From positions 1-64,000 of the forward strand of contig JAPLFQ010000008.1 of the NCBI GenBank assembly GCA_026390595.1: a stretch of 64,000 bases of DNA. The letters run 5' to 3'. Numbering within the stretch: position 1 is the stretch's first letter; each line of letters begins with the position of its first letter. The translations under genes and the position numbers were made by a program. The DNA is from Ignavibacteriales bacterium (GTDB lineage Bacteria; Bacteroidota; Ignavibacteria; UBA10030). Shown here in pieces: positions 3,290 to 27,839 of the stretch. A model generated the notes under the pieces. It saw only the letters and a program-made list of their open reading frames with translations, ran no database searches and was not told the origin of the DNA.

Positions 3290-4348
3290 CTATTGATTGA
3301 CCGTCACGTTGACCGGCATGCCGGGACGCAGCTGGAGGATCCCCGTTGTGAGGACGGTATCTCCCTCAGAGAGTCCGGAGATGATTTGAATGACGGAGGG
3401 CGTACGGACTCCTGTCTTGACAGACACGCTCACCACAACTCCGTTCTTTTTTACGAGGACTGTCTGCCCTTTCAAAACAGGGATGATCGCCTGGGTAGGA
3501 ACCATCAAGGCGCCGCCTGGTTGTTTCAGTCGCAATTCGACATGCACATAGCCGCCCGGGTAAATTGCTTCACTCTTGTTCTCGCACAGAGCGCGCAGCT
3601 GCACGGTGCGCGTCGCGGGCTCGATCTCGGGTTCAATGGCATACACCTTCCCCATGAACTGCAGATTTGTCTCGTCGCTCTGTAACTTCACCAGGTCACC
3701 CACGCGAACTTTTCCGGCGTATTTTTCGGGTATCGCAAAATCCACCTTTAGTGGGTTGATCTTCTGGACACTCGCGATGCGCGTCGTGGGAGCCACATAA
3801 CTCCCTTCGCTCACGTAGCGCAGTCCAACGATCCCATCAAAGGGAGCTCGGATTTCCCGCTTACGGATGGAGGCGACGAGATTTTCGCGATCTGCATTCA
3901 GGGTAGCAAGCATGCTGATCGCAACATCGTGCTGTTCCTTACTCGTGTTGCCGGTCTCCAGAAGTCTCTTCTGCCTCTCGGCCTGATCGGCCGCGAGCTG
4001 AATCTGAAGTTCGGTCTTTTTCAGTTGAGCCTGCAGATCATCGCAGTTGAGTTTGAGCAGCAAGTCGTTCTTCCTGACGTGGGCCCCTTCCTTGAACGTA
4101 ATGGTCTGCACGATACCCGATGCTTCTGCGGCCAGGTCCACCGATTCGGATGCGAGGACTGTACCGGAGGAGTTCACGACGTTGTCGAGCGGTTGCGACG
4201 TGACGACGACGCCGCTAACCGTCATGCCGCCGGGGCGTCCACCGGCCCGTTGAGCTGGCCCCTCATTGGATTTCGAGCTGCAGGATAAGAAGCCGAGCGA
4301 ACAGCTTAAGACTGTGAGTACGAGGGTAACGCGAAGTAGTTTTGCCAT
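3290..4348 (-). CDS. RND efflux periplasmic adaptor (membrane fusion protein), lipoprotein
   Basis: Bridges the RND permease to an outer-membrane channel. The chosen start gives a 352-residue protein beginning MAKLLRVTLVLTVLSCSLGF and followed by a lipobox ending in the cysteine of FLSC, so it is a lipid-anchored adaptor. A further 26 in-frame codons upstream would put the signal peptide internally and are rejected. Visible parts are a lipoyl-like half (ASGIVQTITFKEGAHVRKND), an alpha-helical hairpin rich in K/E/Q, the second lipoyl half (IRAPFDGIVGLRYVSEGSYV), a beta-barrel and a membrane-proximal domain. First gene of the pump operon. Confidence 0.93.
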   Translation of the reverse strand: MAKLLRVTLVLTVLSCSLGFLSCSSKSNEGPAQRAGGRPGGMTVSGVVVTSQPLDNVVNSSGTVLASESVDLAAEASGIVQTITFKEGAHVRKNDLLLKLNCDDLQAQLKKTELQIQLAADQAERQKRLLETGNTSKEQHDVAISMLATLNADRENLVASIRKREIRAPFDGIVGLRYVSEGSYVAPTTRIASVQKINPLKVDFAIPEKYAGKVRVGDLVKLQSDETNLQFMGKVYAIEPEIEPATRTVQLRALCENKSEAIYPGGYVHVELRLKQPGGALMVPTQAIIPVLKGQTVLVKKNGVVVSVSVKTGVRTPSVIQIISGLSEGDTVLTTGILQLRPGMPVNVTVNQ

Positions 4349-24063: not shown

Positions 24064-24843
24064 TCAGATCTTCTGCAAAGCCTCAAAGACCAGTCGTGCA
24101 ACCTCGACAGCCCCTTCCGGCTGAAAATGCGTATTGTCTTTCTGACCATCGGGATAGGCTTCAAAAGTACTTGCTGGAAGGTTCATGAAATAGTGGCTGG
24201 TGACGTACTCCTGACCCTTGGAAGTAAAGAAGTCGCACGAGAGTTGCGTCAAATCGATGAGTCGGACACTGAGTTCTTTCGCCACCTGTTTCACCGCATC
24301 CGGATATTCTCCGTGCACACTCGTGAGCTTCCCATCAGCCCATGGATAATTGCGGTTCACGGGCGTGAGGAGGATTGGTATTGCCCCTTTTTCACGGGCT
24401 TGATTCACATACAGACGAAGGTATTCTTTGTATCCTTGCACAGTGACATACCGCTCAGGTTTGTCTTTTGCTGCGTCATTGTGGCCAAACTGGATAAGAA
24501 TCAGGTCATTGGGCTTCAGCGATTCATACACAGAGGCCCATCGCCCTTCCTCAAAAAACGTCCGGGTACTGCGTCCACCGCGTGCACTGTCGACAACCAA
24601 CACACTGTCGGCCTTGATGACGTTTCGCATCTTGAAAAGACTGTCACGACTCATGAAAGTCTGGAATACCTGTCCCCATCCGGTGATGGGAAAACGTTTG
24701 GTCTTGTAATCATCGTAGATCGTGTAATCAGCCACCGTCGAGTCACCTATCAGGAAGACTCTGACGATTGTCTTGTCCGCGGTCTGGCGGAAGCCGACCA
24801 GCAATCCGAACAGCAGCAATGCGATCAGGCGTGCGTGTCTCAT
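24064..24843 (-). CDS. Exported SGNH hydrolase, rhamnogalacturonan acetylesterase-like (CE12)
   Basis: Removes acetyl groups from rhamnogalacturonan I so that lyases and hydrolases can act. The 259-residue protein has a signal peptide, block I GDST in VFLIGDSTVADYT, 'GWGQVFQTF', block III FGHNDAA, and the C-terminal Asp-His pair in 'YPDGQKDNTHFQPEGA'. This is the layout of CE12/RhgT enzymes. It is the downstream end of the pectin region. A second CE12-type domain occurs at 46419-47936. Confidence 0.9.
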   Translation of the reverse strand: MRHARLIALLLFGLLVGFRQTADKTIVRVFLIGDSTVADYTIYDDYKTKRFPITGWGQVFQTFMSRDSLFKMRNVIKADSVLVVDSARGGRSTRTFFEEGRWASVYESLKPNDLILIQFGHNDAAKDKPERYVTVQGYKEYLRLYVNQAREKGAIPILLTPVNRNYPWADGKLTSVHGEYPDAVKQVAKELSVRLIDLTQLSCDFFTSKGQEYVTSHYFMNLPASTFEAYPDGQKDNTHFQPEGAVEVARLVFEALQKI

Positions 24844-24912
24844 AGGTGTTGAATCTCCCGAATAGCTCCGTTCTCTTTATGATCGGTTTTACTTTTCCTT
24901 TAGTGTTCCCCC

Positions 24913-25493
24913 AAAGCACACACCTCTCAACTCCCCTCCCCGCCAGACCGCATGGCGGGCTGGTCTCACCCCACATCCTCTCACACGAGAGGGGACGCTT
25001 AATTCTTGGACTTGTCTTCGTCAAGCAGCTTCGTATCCGACGGTCGTCGAGTCTGTATCCAATGAGCAATTGAATCGACGACACCCTCAAGATTCTGCTT
25101 CACTTCTTCGTCAGAAAACCTAAGGAATTGGATTGAGAACTTCTCAATATCACGCTGTCGCTGGCTGTCTTTCGTGAGCTTCCCCTCGTGAGAATCACCA
25201 TCGATTTCGATAGCAAGAAGTAGCTTTGGGCAAAAGAAATCGACGACGAATTCATCGATGGGCTTCTGGCGATGGAAATCGTATTCAAGCAGCTGCTTGT
25301 TCTTCAGTTGCTTCCAGAGTAGAATCTCGGCGAGAATCATGTTGTTGCGCAACATTCTGGCAACTTGCTTCAACCGCGGGTTGTATGGGAGTACTTTACG
25401 TCTCATTTCCTAGTTCCTGATCGAAGCTTGAACAGTCCCCTCTGTGCGTCCGCCTGTGCGAAGGCGAGAGGGGATGGCAGGGGTGTGTGCTTT
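24913..25493. mobile_element. DUF559-nuclease unit bracketed by inverted repeats
   Basis: AAAGCACACACC at 24913-24924 is repeated in perfect inverse at 25482-25493. In both arms it is followed, after exactly eight variable bases, by CCCCTC and then a GCC-rich stretch, so the repeat extends to about 30 bp. The 581-bp interval contains one gene (24999-25406) plus internal hairpins: CCTCTC/GAGAGG just after its stop, CCCCTCT/AGAGGGG before its start, and the 25-bp hairpin seen in the MITE-like copy at 21373. It interrupts the pectin gene run between two esterase genes. Confidence 0.72.
24999..25406 (-). CDS. DUF559 (Vsr/PD-(D/E)xK-like) endonuclease
   Basis: A 135-residue small nuclease-fold protein. 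'LLWKQLKNKQLLEYDFHRQK' followed by 'PIDEFVVDFFCPKLLLAIEI' and DGDSH gives the core: Asp56, then Glu67-x-Asp69, then His73. 'RDIEKFSIQFLRFSDEEV' is the closing part of the DUF559 domain. The family is related to very-short-patch-repair and restriction-like nucleases; its biological role is not established. It has nothing obvious to do with pectin. The flanking inverted repeats and hairpins suggest it is the only gene of a small mobilisable unit (inference). Confidence 0.9.
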   Translation of the reverse strand: MRRKVLPYNPRLKQVARMLRNNMILAEILLWKQLKNKQLLEYDFHRQKPIDEFVVDFFCPKLLLAIEIDGDSHEGKLTKDSQRQRDIEKFSIQFLRFSDEEVKQNLEGVVDSIAHWIQTRRPSDTKLLDEDKSKN

Positions 25494-25528
25494 TCTTTGC
25501 CAATGTCGCTTAGAAGCACACACGCTCC

Positions 25529-26518
25529 TCATCTTCCTTTGAGCGTCTTGTCTAGGAACGTGACGATGTAACCGAGCGCTTCATCAAACCACGGATGGAA
25601 GAGCCAGAACGGATGCGGTGTATTGGAAATGGTGTGCACCTCGGAGTAGATGCCGAGTTTCTTCATCTTTGCGATGCCTTCATCACGGCCGGCATGATAC
25701 CGCGGCAAGGAACTGTTCACGAAGAGAATCGGAGCGGTTGTCTCGCCAAAATAATTGATCGGTGATGCTTCCCGCCAAAGGTCCGGCTTCTCCTTGAATG
25801 AAGCGCCAAACCATGCTTTCCCCGCCGATGGCTTTTCGGGAATACTGTCTTTCGCGCTCTCAGCGGGATCGGTGAAATCCAGCACGCCATCGATGTCGAT
25901 AACGGCCTGCACGCGGCTTGATTGGCGCAGGTCCCCAAGTGAGCCTTCGAACCCCTCCACGTCCCCTGTCGTTCCCAGAAACGCCGCAAGCTCACCACCT
26001 GCGGAGCAGCCATACACTGCAATCTTCTTTGGATCCATGTTGAACTTCCCTGCGTTCCCCCGCATCCACCGGATGGCCGCCTTGAGGTCGTGAACACCAG
26101 TTGGATAGAGTGCTTCTGTCGATAAGCGATACTCTACCGTGGCGGTAACATATCCCTTCGCCGCCAGGTGCTGTGCCATCGGCCATTCCATCTGCCGGTA
26201 CCCCGATCTCCAGCCGCCTCCGTGAATCAACAGTACGGCCGGGTACCCCTTCGCCAATTTTTTCACCGGCGCGAAAAGGTCGACGTGAAGGTCTCTGGAA
26301 CCATCGCTCGCGTACACGATATTCTCCTGAACAGTCACTCCTGAGGGGACCTTTGGTTCAACAAGTCTCGCGTGCGGATACTGTTTGAGCACTTTCGCCG
26401 CTGTATTGCTGACTGTAAATGAAGTATCACGCGGCACCGAAACCACTGCTTTTTGCTGAGCAGCAGATACGCACACAAGAACGAGAATTGCAGTCAGGCA
26501 TGAGAATCGTTGTACCAT
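25529..26518 (-). CDS. Exported alpha/beta-hydrolase esterase
   Basis: A 329-residue secreted esterase with a signal peptide ending VSAAQQ. The oxyanion motif is HGGGWRSG (about residue 99) and the nucleophile elbow is GCSAGG with Ser172. The fold and 'NGRDLHVDLF'-style N-terminus match the BD-FAE/acetylesterase group, so a carbohydrate acetyl- or feruloyl-esterase acting on pectin is likely. The start is set by GGGAAGG five bases before ATG 26518. It lies 25 bp downstream of the PL10 lyase gene. Confidence 0.85.
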   Translation of the reverse strand: MVQRFSCLTAILVLVCVSAAQQKAVVSVPRDTSFTVSNTAAKVLKQYPHARLVEPKVPSGVTVQENIVYASDGSRDLHVDLFAPVKKLAKGYPAVLLIHGGGWRSGYRQMEWPMAQHLAAKGYVTATVEYRLSTEALYPTGVHDLKAAIRWMRGNAGKFNMDPKKIAVYGCSAGGELAAFLGTTGDVEGFEGSLGDLRQSSRVQAVIDIDGVLDFTDPAESAKDSIPEKPSAGKAWFGASFKEKPDLWREASPINYFGETTAPILFVNSSLPRYHAGRDEGIAKMKKLGIYSEVHTISNTPHPFWLFHPWFDEALGYIVTFLDKTLKGR

Positions 26519-26543
26519 GGCAACCTTCCCTTTCAAAGAAATC

Positions 26544-27686
26544 TTACCGGAGGACATTCCTTACGGAGTGTTTCTTCACCCACTCCGGGTATTCTTTCTC
26601 GAGCAATCGTTGAGGCCAGTACCCCAGCCAGCTATAGTGGTTCCGACGTTCGAATGATATTTCCGCGAGGGCGTAGCGCTTGACTCCATCTCTGCCGCAG
26701 AAGAACGGCCTGTTCGTACCAATTTCGTAGAACCTTGCCCACATCGGCTTGGCCGAAGAATCTTTGAGGACGATCCTGTTTCTTCCTTCAGGTCCGAGTG
26801 TGTCGGACACTTCGGTCACTTTGATCCCGTAGATTTTCACCTTCTTGAACCATTTCACAGCCGCCTGCACGGAGGCGATGATTTCACCGGTCGGGTTCTC
26901 AATGCCCATGAGGAATTCAATGATGCCAACAGATTCTTCACCGCTGAGGGAGGGCAATTCGTACGTCCTCGCTTTCGCCGGACTGAAATCCTTCTCGTCG
27001 TGCTGAGCACACCAGGCTGTCAGATCGCCGTTGACGCGGATCTGGCATTTGAGTATGCACCGGATCCCTTTTTCCACTGCCGTTGCGGCCTTTGCCTTTC
27101 GTTCTTCATCGAGGAATGCGAAGTCCGCACCTCCGCGGGAAGCATCCCGCAGGAGTTTCATTGCTCCGATCATAGCGTCATCGTTGAACGTGATGTGCGA
27201 ATAGTACCCCTGTCGCAGCGGATAGAACTGCGGCCACCCTCCGTTTTCGTACTGAGCCCGGAGCAAATAATCGAATCCCCGAATGAAGGAAGTTTTGAAC
27301 TGGCCGAGCTTTGTCTCCCGATACACCTTCGCGAGATAGCGGAGCTGTGTGTAGGTAGCGCTGTTATCGATCGTAGAACTATCGAGATGGTTGATGGCTT
27401 TCAGCTGTTTTCGTGAAACTTCATCCAGCACTTCTGCCATGTCGATATTTTTTGGCCATCCGCCCGAAGGAAACTGATACAGCAGCAGGTTGTCTGCAAT
27501 TCTGATAGCTTCCGGGCTCCCGTACCAGTGTTCCCGTTGGGTGAGAGACGCCCACCAATGTACGGTTTTCGCATTCTGAGCAAGACCACTCGACAAAACG
27601 ATGAGAAGAAGCAACGTCGTCGGTACAAGTGAGGACCAGATTCCGCCTCTACGCTCGCTCTGTTTCGACAGATCACCGCGGATCAT
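26544..27686 (-). CDS. Exported pectate lyase, PL10 family
   Basis: Cleaves homogalacturonan by beta-elimination. The 380-residue protein has a signal peptide (SLVPTTLLLLIVLSSGLAQ) and the (alpha/alpha)3-barrel PL10 signatures 'NNLLLYQFPSGGWPKNIDM'-like N-terminus, 'YLLRAQYENGGWPQFYPLRQ' and 'NGDLTAWCAQHDEKDFSPAK' followed by ARTYELPSLSG with the catalytic Asp/Arg region. It corresponds to the PelA/Pel-15E type. AGGAG five bases before ATG 27686 fixes the start; a 33-codon upstream extension is rejected. Next downstream is the alpha/beta esterase. Confidence 0.93.
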   Translation of the reverse strand: MIRGDLSKQSERRGGIWSSLVPTTLLLLIVLSSGLAQNAKTVHWWASLTQREHWYGSPEAIRIADNLLLYQFPSGGWPKNIDMAEVLDEVSRKQLKAINHLDSSTIDNSATYTQLRYLAKVYRETKLGQFKTSFIRGFDYLLRAQYENGGWPQFYPLRQGYYSHITFNDDAMIGAMKLLRDASRGGADFAFLDEERKAKAATAVEKGIRCILKCQIRVNGDLTAWCAQHDEKDFSPAKARTYELPSLSGEESVGIIEFLMGIENPTGEIIASVQAAVKWFKKVKIYGIKVTEVSDTLGPEGRNRIVLKDSSAKPMWARFYEIGTNRPFFCGRDGVKRYALAEISFERRNHYSWLGYWPQRLLEKEYPEWVKKHSVRNVLR

Positions 27687-27839
27687 TATCTCTCCTGAAC
27701 AGGGACTCAACGTGCTTAGAAACAACCACGCCCGCGGTAAAAGGAATTTGTGATAACCGATATTGCCCGACCCGGAGCAGGTCACGAGTCATTCTCCTCT
27801 ATAGCCCGGATCGTTGCTTCGCTACAGTTCAACCAGGTT

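Follow-up and report, generated by a model that had tools for sequence, protein, structure and literature searches.

A DUF559 gene between tagged hairpins separates two esterase genes

The window analyzed here is a stretch of 64,000 nucleotides from an Ignavibacteriales bacterium (assembly GCA_026390595.1, contig JAPLFQ010000008.1, positions 1 to 64,000). It contains a catabolic run that includes a GDSL esterase/lipase gene and a BD-FAE-type esterase gene, between which lies a short unit whose sole called gene is an intact DUF559 ORF (Table 1). As the original prediction, made from the sequence of this DNA, had proposed, the unit splits the two esterase genes, encloses exactly one gene and bears hairpins on both sides of that gene. 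The left hairpin has been invaded by a second palindrome.

Table 1. Features of the DUF559 unit and its surroundings in the window.
Feature	Position	Strand	Basis or remark
Mobile unit core (tag-hairpin-DUF559-hairpin-tag)	24913..25496	.	Inverted repeat and homology to the G028:C403 element
Left outer tag AAAGCACACACCTC, reverse complement of the GGGGTGTGTGCTTT type	24913..24926	-	12-bp partner of 25482-25493
Left hairpin CTCCCCTC..GAGAGGGG	24931..24994	.	Disrupted by second palindrome inserted at 24939-24963
DUF559 nuclease gene, 135 aa	24999..25406	-	Pfam DUF559, E 9.3e-29
Inner border upstream of gene (..TCGAAGCTTGAACAGT)	25407..25436	.	Similar in gene-less copies, judged by eye
Right hairpin CCCCTCT-23 nt-AGAGGGG	25437..25473	.	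R1 match and fold
Right outer tag GGGGTGTGTGCTTT	25480..25493	+	Partner of left tag
Further partial tag AAGCACACACGCT	25514..25526	-	About 20 bp outside the unit, abuts the BD-FAE gene end
GDSL esterase/lipase gene (host)	24064..24843	-	Left of insertion
BD-FAE-type esterase gene (host)	25529..26557	-	Right of insertion
Pectate lyase gene	26544..27785		Next after the BD-FAE-type esterase gene

Each end of the unit has the GGGGTGTGTGCTTT tag outermost and the hairpin CCCCTCT..AGAGGGG inside, the latter measuring 37 bp in intact copies. Both hairpins of the window were supported by DNA folding, with z scores of -2.2 for the left one (as a single strand) and -2.0 for the right one. The spacing of the further partial tag resembles that of tag-to-tag pairs elsewhere in the genome (outward pairs, 27-28 bp). 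The palindrome within the left hairpin (CCCGCCAGACCGCATGGCGGGCTGG) has counterparts in the relatives G027 and G028, where similar inserts are seen in the hairpins of some copies (L284, L290) and also in the BD-FAE/GDSL gap of G027.

The perfect 12-bp inverted repeat with its CCCCTC block is present as claimed (24913-24924 and 25482-25493), and lengthens to 26-nt arms of 81% complementarity that take in the CCCCTC/GAGGGG block. Taken alone, the 12-mer was rejected as proof of a unit because such an arm pair is also present in 22 of 1000 dinucleotide shuffles and, when the real window sequence is cut into 126 tiles of 1 kb, in 15 of these; it is the recurrence of the arms in sequence comparisons, rather than the arms themselves, that we find persuasive. 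A structured RNA was likewise rejected as the identity of the unit, given that Rfam produced no match within 24700-25700 at E values up to 1. As for the predicted length, 581 bp holds for the core and not always for the whole repeat, since in relatives, including several copies of this genus, the repeat often runs about 85-100 bp past the tags; this extension is absent, by eye, from the window copy.

The unit is inserted at the pectin locus

Homologs of the BD-FAE gene were found in all five same-genus genomes searched, with 56-77% identity. In three of them (G025, G027 and G029) the BD-FAE and GDSL genes are adjacent, with no DUF559 match between them; in G026, a GDSL match was not found in the fetched BD-FAE locus, and in G028, where the GDSL gene was matched only in part, a gene-less copy of the element fills the gap. 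G028 also carries a gene-bearing copy on another contig (L049, identical over 1300 bases to G028:C403), the protein of which shares 73% identity with the window DUF559 protein. Homology between the window and this copy covers 24915-25496, is interrupted only at the inserted palindrome, and was not detected outside these limits at the sensitivity used.

A second case was provided by a gene-less copy of the window's own genome (C6:14711-14876), which is missing from the corresponding gap of both G027 and G028. That gap holds another repeat in the two relatives (L261, L262), made up of GGTGCC..GGCACC and AGAAGTCGGACTTCT-like palindromes, and similar sequence is also found near the DUF559 gene of contig C7 (L001).

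Presence and absence of the element are thus clear at the pectin locus and at C6:14711. A base-precise empty site or target duplication was not found at these two places, in Winogradskyella, in the Azospirillum and Sinorhizobium plasmids or in the Deinococcus hpa operon; at the first two places the gaps of the relatives contain other sequence. The comparison of syntenic pectin loci that had been suggested yielded three loci without the gene and no empty site readable to the base. At the level of sequence, these comparisons show the unit to be an insertion.

The arms are found elsewhere, both with and without the gene

R1, a covariance model of the arm (hairpin plus GGGGTGTGTG tag), was trained on 18 copies of the ends taken from this genome, including the right arm of the window and excluding the left one. 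The model matched the right arm, a training sequence, at 25435-25490 (+) with E 1.2e-15, and the left arm, outside the training set, at 24916-24996 (-) with E 2.5e-11. At least 26 matches, the 18 training copies included, were found in this genome, most forming gene-less pairs, and at least 200 in the 32 genomes of the family, spread over 18 of them; these counts are lower bounds, as scoring was confined to the 150 best candidates of each genome. The arms are neither absent elsewhere nor always conserved with the esterase genes, the pattern that had been named as speaking against insertion.

The pairing of the ends was classified among the 150 matches listed of the 200. Most pairs have their tags outside, with 34 gene-less pairs (20-61 bp between ends) and two gene-bearing ones of 438 bp each, namely the window and G028:C403. 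Tags inside were found in seven gene-less (27-112 bp) and three gene-bearing pairs (375-460 bp), and direct orientation in one gene-bearing (G012:C33) and three gene-less pairs. Several G028 contigs terminate in or near copies of the element (L289-L294), as near-identical repeats breaking the assembly would give.

Gene-bearing and gene-less copies show the same ends, and the gene-less ones retain bases that border the 3' end of DUF559 (the left border) in full copies. Over 16 such borders, the mean was 8.6 matches of 14 compared to 5.1 when shuffled, and four of the 16 were identical. Since they retain bases of the gene border, the gene-less copies look like derivatives produced by internal deletion; alternatively, a gene-less copy may have gained the gene. 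Of the 71 DUF559 hits in the family, at least 13 have an R1 end no more than 350 bp away among the 150 matches listed of the 200. This genome has three DUF559 genes, and the two outside the window unit are accompanied by hairpins of different sequence.

The DUF559 protein is predicted to be an EDxHD-like nuclease under selection

Residues invariant among 26 aligned sequences include E27, D56, E67, D69, H73, D80 and R96, so that the predicted catalytic residues are intact in the window protein. The dN/dS ratio between the window gene and L049 was 0.12 (NG86) or 0.15 (YN00), and the protein is therefore under selection to remain intact, as judged from these codon comparisons. Database matches were weak with PADLOC and PHROGs, and the NCBIfam match to PRK09767 (DUF559; E 2.5e-18) fell far short of the cut-off of that model.

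With a mean pLDDT of 81.5, the predicted structure matched the DUF559 protein of Neisseria gonorrhoeae 3hrl (Z 16.0), I-Bth0305I, a homing endonuclease (Z 11.8 over 94 residues), a mitochondrial ribosomal protein (Z 9.5) and Vsr (Z 9.4 and 9.0); weaker rows for a Holliday junction resolvase (6.3) and for TnsA of Tn7 (6.1) may mean only a common arrangement. E27, D56, H73 and D80 were equated with the residues that name the EDxHD family by their order only. One report assigns a DUF559 gene to this family (PMC9403480).

The resemblance of the predicted fold to Vsr raises the alternative that DUF559 is a repair or structure-removing nuclease that guards the host from palindromes, in which case its association with hairpins would be regulatory or selective and not mobile. 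In a study on Caulobacter, the SOS response of a methyltransferase mutant depends on a DUF559 protein, for which a role in mismatch repair is proposed (PMC12907096). Nevertheless, the gene and its hairpins form an insertion that is missing from close relatives and recurs at unrelated sites, and a repair gene needs no flanking inverted copies of a family repeat, which makes such a housekeeping role very improbable as the explanation of the unit.

Hairpins accompany DUF559 genes in several phyla

The original prediction had placed DUF559 genes in similar hairpin-rich sequence of other genomes as well, and this was borne out in a set of 84 standalone loci, composed of 60 short-frame matches from Bacteroidota and 26 of 35 earlier loci, less two that were too short. 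The 60 loci were drawn from the matches listed, with short open frames, contig ends skipped and at most two per genome, and are not fully independent. A C-to-G hairpin was found within 250 bp in 79 of the 84 loci, and on both sides in 51. The corresponding figures from these loci were 36 and 6 of 106 for other ORFs (120 aa or longer), and 96 and 9 of 504 for random windows. The loci without a scored hairpin were L130, L132, L151, L156 and L164. When left and right flanks were compared as inverted repeats, 33 of 59 loci scored above 99% of a same-locus null and 20 of 59 above 99% of a cross-genome null. To the left of a DUF559 unit of Winogradskyella, a 121-bp stretch (L063, 2655-2775) is present again to the right of the unit, as a direct repeat with 83% identity at 3767-3887, about 1 kb away.

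The association is found in several phyla, as far as hairpin scoring and inspection of sequence can show. Outside Bacteroidota, scored hairpins were present at loci of Ardenticatenales, Roizmanbacteria and alphaproteobacteria, and hairpins were judged by eye at 15 further DUF559 loci from a plasmids collection. In nine of these they lie on both sides of the gene, in Sinorhizobium (L300, L303), Deinococcus (L304, L310, L312, L313), Picosynechococcus (L305), N. gonorrhoeae (L306) and Azospirillum (L307); in five they are one-sided (L301, L302, Sphingomonas L308, Shinella L309 and Escherichia coli L311), and in one, from Synechocystis (L314), they are absent. At the N. gonorrhoeae locus, whose protein is of the 3hrl family, the gene lies between similar hairpin-plus-tag blocks that form a direct repeat instead of an inverted one. 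Three Deinococcus species carry DUF559 at three different hpa operon junctions, and a fourth inside a paa operon; catabolic operons thus recur as insertion places (L310, L312, L313, L304), in parallel to the catabolic run of the window.

In E. coli, ycjD adjoins hairpins of similar style. In strain MG1655 (L320, 1040-1480) the 3' end of ycjD enters a hairpin block, after which a hairpin-plus-tag block comes. A 131-bp stretch downstream in L311 occurs at a median of five places per E. coli genome having any (3943 of 5426 genomes). The palindromes beside ycjD and beside the DUF559 gene of Sinorhizobium meliloti L300 share the style of those described here, and may be akin to box C of E. coli and to the RIME repeats of rhizobia, respectively. 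Among the papers listed by searches of a PMC collection, none linked RIME or box C to DUF559, or DUF559 to repeats of any other kind.

Larger genes with a fused DUF559 domain were considered as a negative control. In the flank test, 13 of 20 such loci ran off the stretch, and of the seven measured two exceeded 95% of the null and one exceeded 99%; in the hairpin test, 14 of 20 were too short, and the remaining six had a hairpin downstream in three cases and upstream of the frame in none. As most stretches were too short and, in five of the six measurable loci, a hairpin lay directly upstream of the domain, the fused genes were unusable for this purpose. Such a hairpin, seen next to the domain in some of six fused loci among L179-L198, suggests that a larger gene may in some cases have acquired a DUF559 unit by in-frame fusion.

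Repeat number and arm sequence follow DUF559

Repeats were counted in 296 Bacteroidota genomes with the pattern CCCCT-n-AGGGG-n-GGGGTG, designed after viewing the flanks in this genome and in the first set of 35 loci, and DUF559 matches with E up to 1e-15 were considered strong. The mean number of pattern hits per genome was 9.4 in the 126 genomes with a strong DUF559 match, 0.9 in the 45 with a weak one and 1.2 in the 125 with none, whereas the reversed pattern gave totals of 20, 6 and 58 hits in these groups, respectively. Over all 296 genomes, the number of pattern hits correlated with the number of DUF559 genes (Spearman rho 0.62). The share of genomes with at least four hits differed by 0.43 between groups, of which permutation within families left 0.28, and the within-family excess of repeats with DUF559 was significant (2000 permutations; p-value: 0.0005). 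The link is therefore partly common to whole families, with a significant excess within them.

Exceptions were found in 13 of the 296 genomes, which have at least four and up to 34 pattern hits and no strong DUF559 match. When 12 of these were searched again with the DUF559 profile, 11 yielded nothing at E values of 0.1 or below, and G254 had a weak match. In such genomes, either the gene was lost after the repeats had spread or another enzyme suffices. Four of them (G115, G190, G218 and G254) contain 11-34 hairpin-plus-tag hits each, and the copies listed from G190 have in common a second small palindrome (GTCAGTTTACTGAC) between hairpin and tag.

Within the 32 genomes of the window's family, R1 ends are present in 17 of 23 with DUF559 and in one of nine without it. 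These figures bear on the possibility that DUF559 is a passenger, and that the hairpin pairs are mobilized by another enzyme, such as a Y1/HUH transposase of the RAYT type acting in trans. Y1_Tnp has nine matches in this genome and is found in 30 of the 32 family genomes, and repeats exist in genomes without DUF559, as a passenger role would allow. However, DUF559 is found in 17 of 18 R1-bearing genomes compared to six of 14 lacking R1 (p-value: 0.0037), whereas the corresponding figures for Y1_Tnp are 18 of 18 and 12 of 14 (p-value: 0.18), and for this reason RAYT in trans was rejected as the driver. The nearest Y1_Tnp, among the seven listed of nine, lies about 3.8 kb from a listed R1 end, and a passenger acquired by chance would not turn out to be DUF559 in one phylum after another. 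We thus regard it as unlikely that the gene is cargo.

The arms also vary with the protein, a comparison that the original prediction had suggested. Between loci of different genomes, the arms are less alike the more distant the proteins are (median scores of 192, 42, 26, 24 and 22 by distance bin, the closest bin including loci that share one genomic site), and none of 300 permutations reached the observed relation to protein relatedness. On the other hand, the orientation of the tags relative to the gene, labeled in 67 of 98 loci, changes 21 times on the protein tree compared to 22.5 when shuffled, so a clade-bound tag orientation was not supported.

This independence from the gene tree would also be expected if hairpin repeats that were already in place served a free-standing EDxHD homing nuclease both as target and as the homologous flanks, while these repeats arose and spread by other means. 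In line with such homing are the predicted fold and residues of the protein, the occurrence of the gene in both kinds of interval between repeats, with tags outside and with tags inside, and the existence of repeats without the gene. Against it, arms and gene covary and, at sites unrelated to each other, share homology as a single block, genomes with more DUF559 genes tend to have more repeats, and gene-less copies bear traces of the gene border, though gain of the gene at that point would look alike. Homing as the whole explanation therefore seems quite unlikely.

A candidate mechanism for the spread of the repeats

On balance, we consider it probable that the unit is a mobile element of REP-like kind, in which the DUF559 nuclease targets the element's tagged hairpins and moves the gene-less copies in trans. 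Each end is a tagged palindrome, consisting of a C/G-rich hairpin and a nearby CACCCC/GGGGTG tag, and two facing copies of this end enclose a single gene for a putative DUF559 endonuclease of EDxHD/Vsr fold. The nuclease would bind the tagged hairpin cognate to it, which would probably be present as a cruciform or, during replication, as single strands, and cut there; repair would then copy or transfer the segment into new intergenic sites, and the same enzyme could move gene-less pairs of the same ends in trans. We infer recognition, cutting and the route of transfer from the association, the covariation, the insertion and the predicted fold. Counting against this mechanism are the repeat-rich genomes that have no strong DUF559 match and the failure to find a target duplication at the loci compared, together with the number of family DUF559 hits near listed R1 ends (at least 13 of 71) and the different hairpins around the other two DUF559 genes of this genome. 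The loci in direct orientation (G012:C33 and Neisseria), tag orientations that do not follow the tree and the unclean fused control weigh on the same side.

A wider proposal, which we hold tentatively and judge possible though somewhat short of even, is that small DUF559 nucleases are dedicated mobilizers of C-rich-tagged palindromic repeats across phyla, forming a second REP-like system that does not depend on an HUH enzyme and whose range would take in Bacteroidota, Deinococcus, rhizobia, Neisseria and E. coli. Bacterial genomes commonly contain short palindromic repeats, and DUF559 is a candidate spreader of one widespread kind. If this were so, it would explain repeat families whose driver has no name yet: a protein family of unknown function would gain a function, and many unexplained repeats a mechanism. 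The idea becomes testable in E. coli K-12, where ycjD adjoins such hairpins, and a nuclease of about 120 residues acting on hairpins would be of interest to enzymology.

Comparison with known mobile systems

In its predicted catalytic fold (Z 11.8) and its conserved acidic and histidine residues, among them the E, D, H and D of the family, the DUF559 protein resembles the EDxHD homing endonucleases, of which I-Bth0305I is an example, as they are described in PMC3943268 and PMC9403480. Unlike these, the gene of the unit is free-standing between hairpin repeats and has no Rfam intron match, the 135-aa protein lacks a long separate DNA-binding region, and the elements occupy non-allelic sites with abundant gene-less copies. 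An EDxHD catalytic core is thus predicted to be present, but the non-allelic sites and the gene-less copies are not those of classical homing. In the original description of a minimal mobile or homing-like element, mobility agrees with the insertion and with arms that recur with and without the gene; recognition of the palindromes by the nuclease, and movement by homing rather than transposition, are proposed features.

Terminal inverted repeats and short derivatives that keep the ends of a gene-bearing parent are shared with MITEs. Unlike the MITEs of insertion sequences, the parent gene encodes neither a DDE nor an HUH transposase, and target duplication was not seen. RIMEs and related rhizobial repeats, with which DUF559 loci such as L300 invite comparison, are treated as sequences of unknown function in PMC2573895.

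REP sequences were divided in a 2013 survey into a GTAG class that has a partner enzyme and a CGTC class apparently without one (PMC3733652). According to the same survey, CGTC REPs have A/T pairs in the first and second positions, a stem of 8-9 bp and mostly loops of 4-5 nt, and, like the unit described here, they are tagged palindromes arranged in inverted dimers, occur in Bacteroidetes and alphaproteobacteria, and do not flank RAYT genes. The unit differs from them in its CCCCTC/GAGGGG stems, formed by a T-A followed by four C-G pairs, in its loops, which measure 23-24 nt in this family, and in its C-rich tag, although the bases CGTC do occur beside the hairpins of the left end.

The closest organization is that of REPtrons and REPINs, which combine GTAG-tagged REP palindromes with a RAYT (TnpA_REP) transposase, as set out in PMC3733652 and PMC8266576, and the comparison with REP/RAYT systems offered in the original prediction was apt in this respect. 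Both have short tagged palindromes, often in inverted pairs, scattered gene-less copies, a single repeat-flanked gene, and repeats that vary with that gene; among the 150 R1 matches listed of the 200, gene-less inverted pairs number 34 with tags outside and seven with tags inside. The two differ in the enzyme, a DUF559 endonuclease of PD-(D/E)XK type as opposed to a Y1 HUH enzyme, the listed Y1_Tnp places lying elsewhere in the genome, and in the tag at the foot of the palindrome, which is CACCCC/GGGGTG (CACACACCCC/GGGGTGTGTG) and not GTAG. With a different partner enzyme and a different tag, the unit would work like a REPtron without being one.
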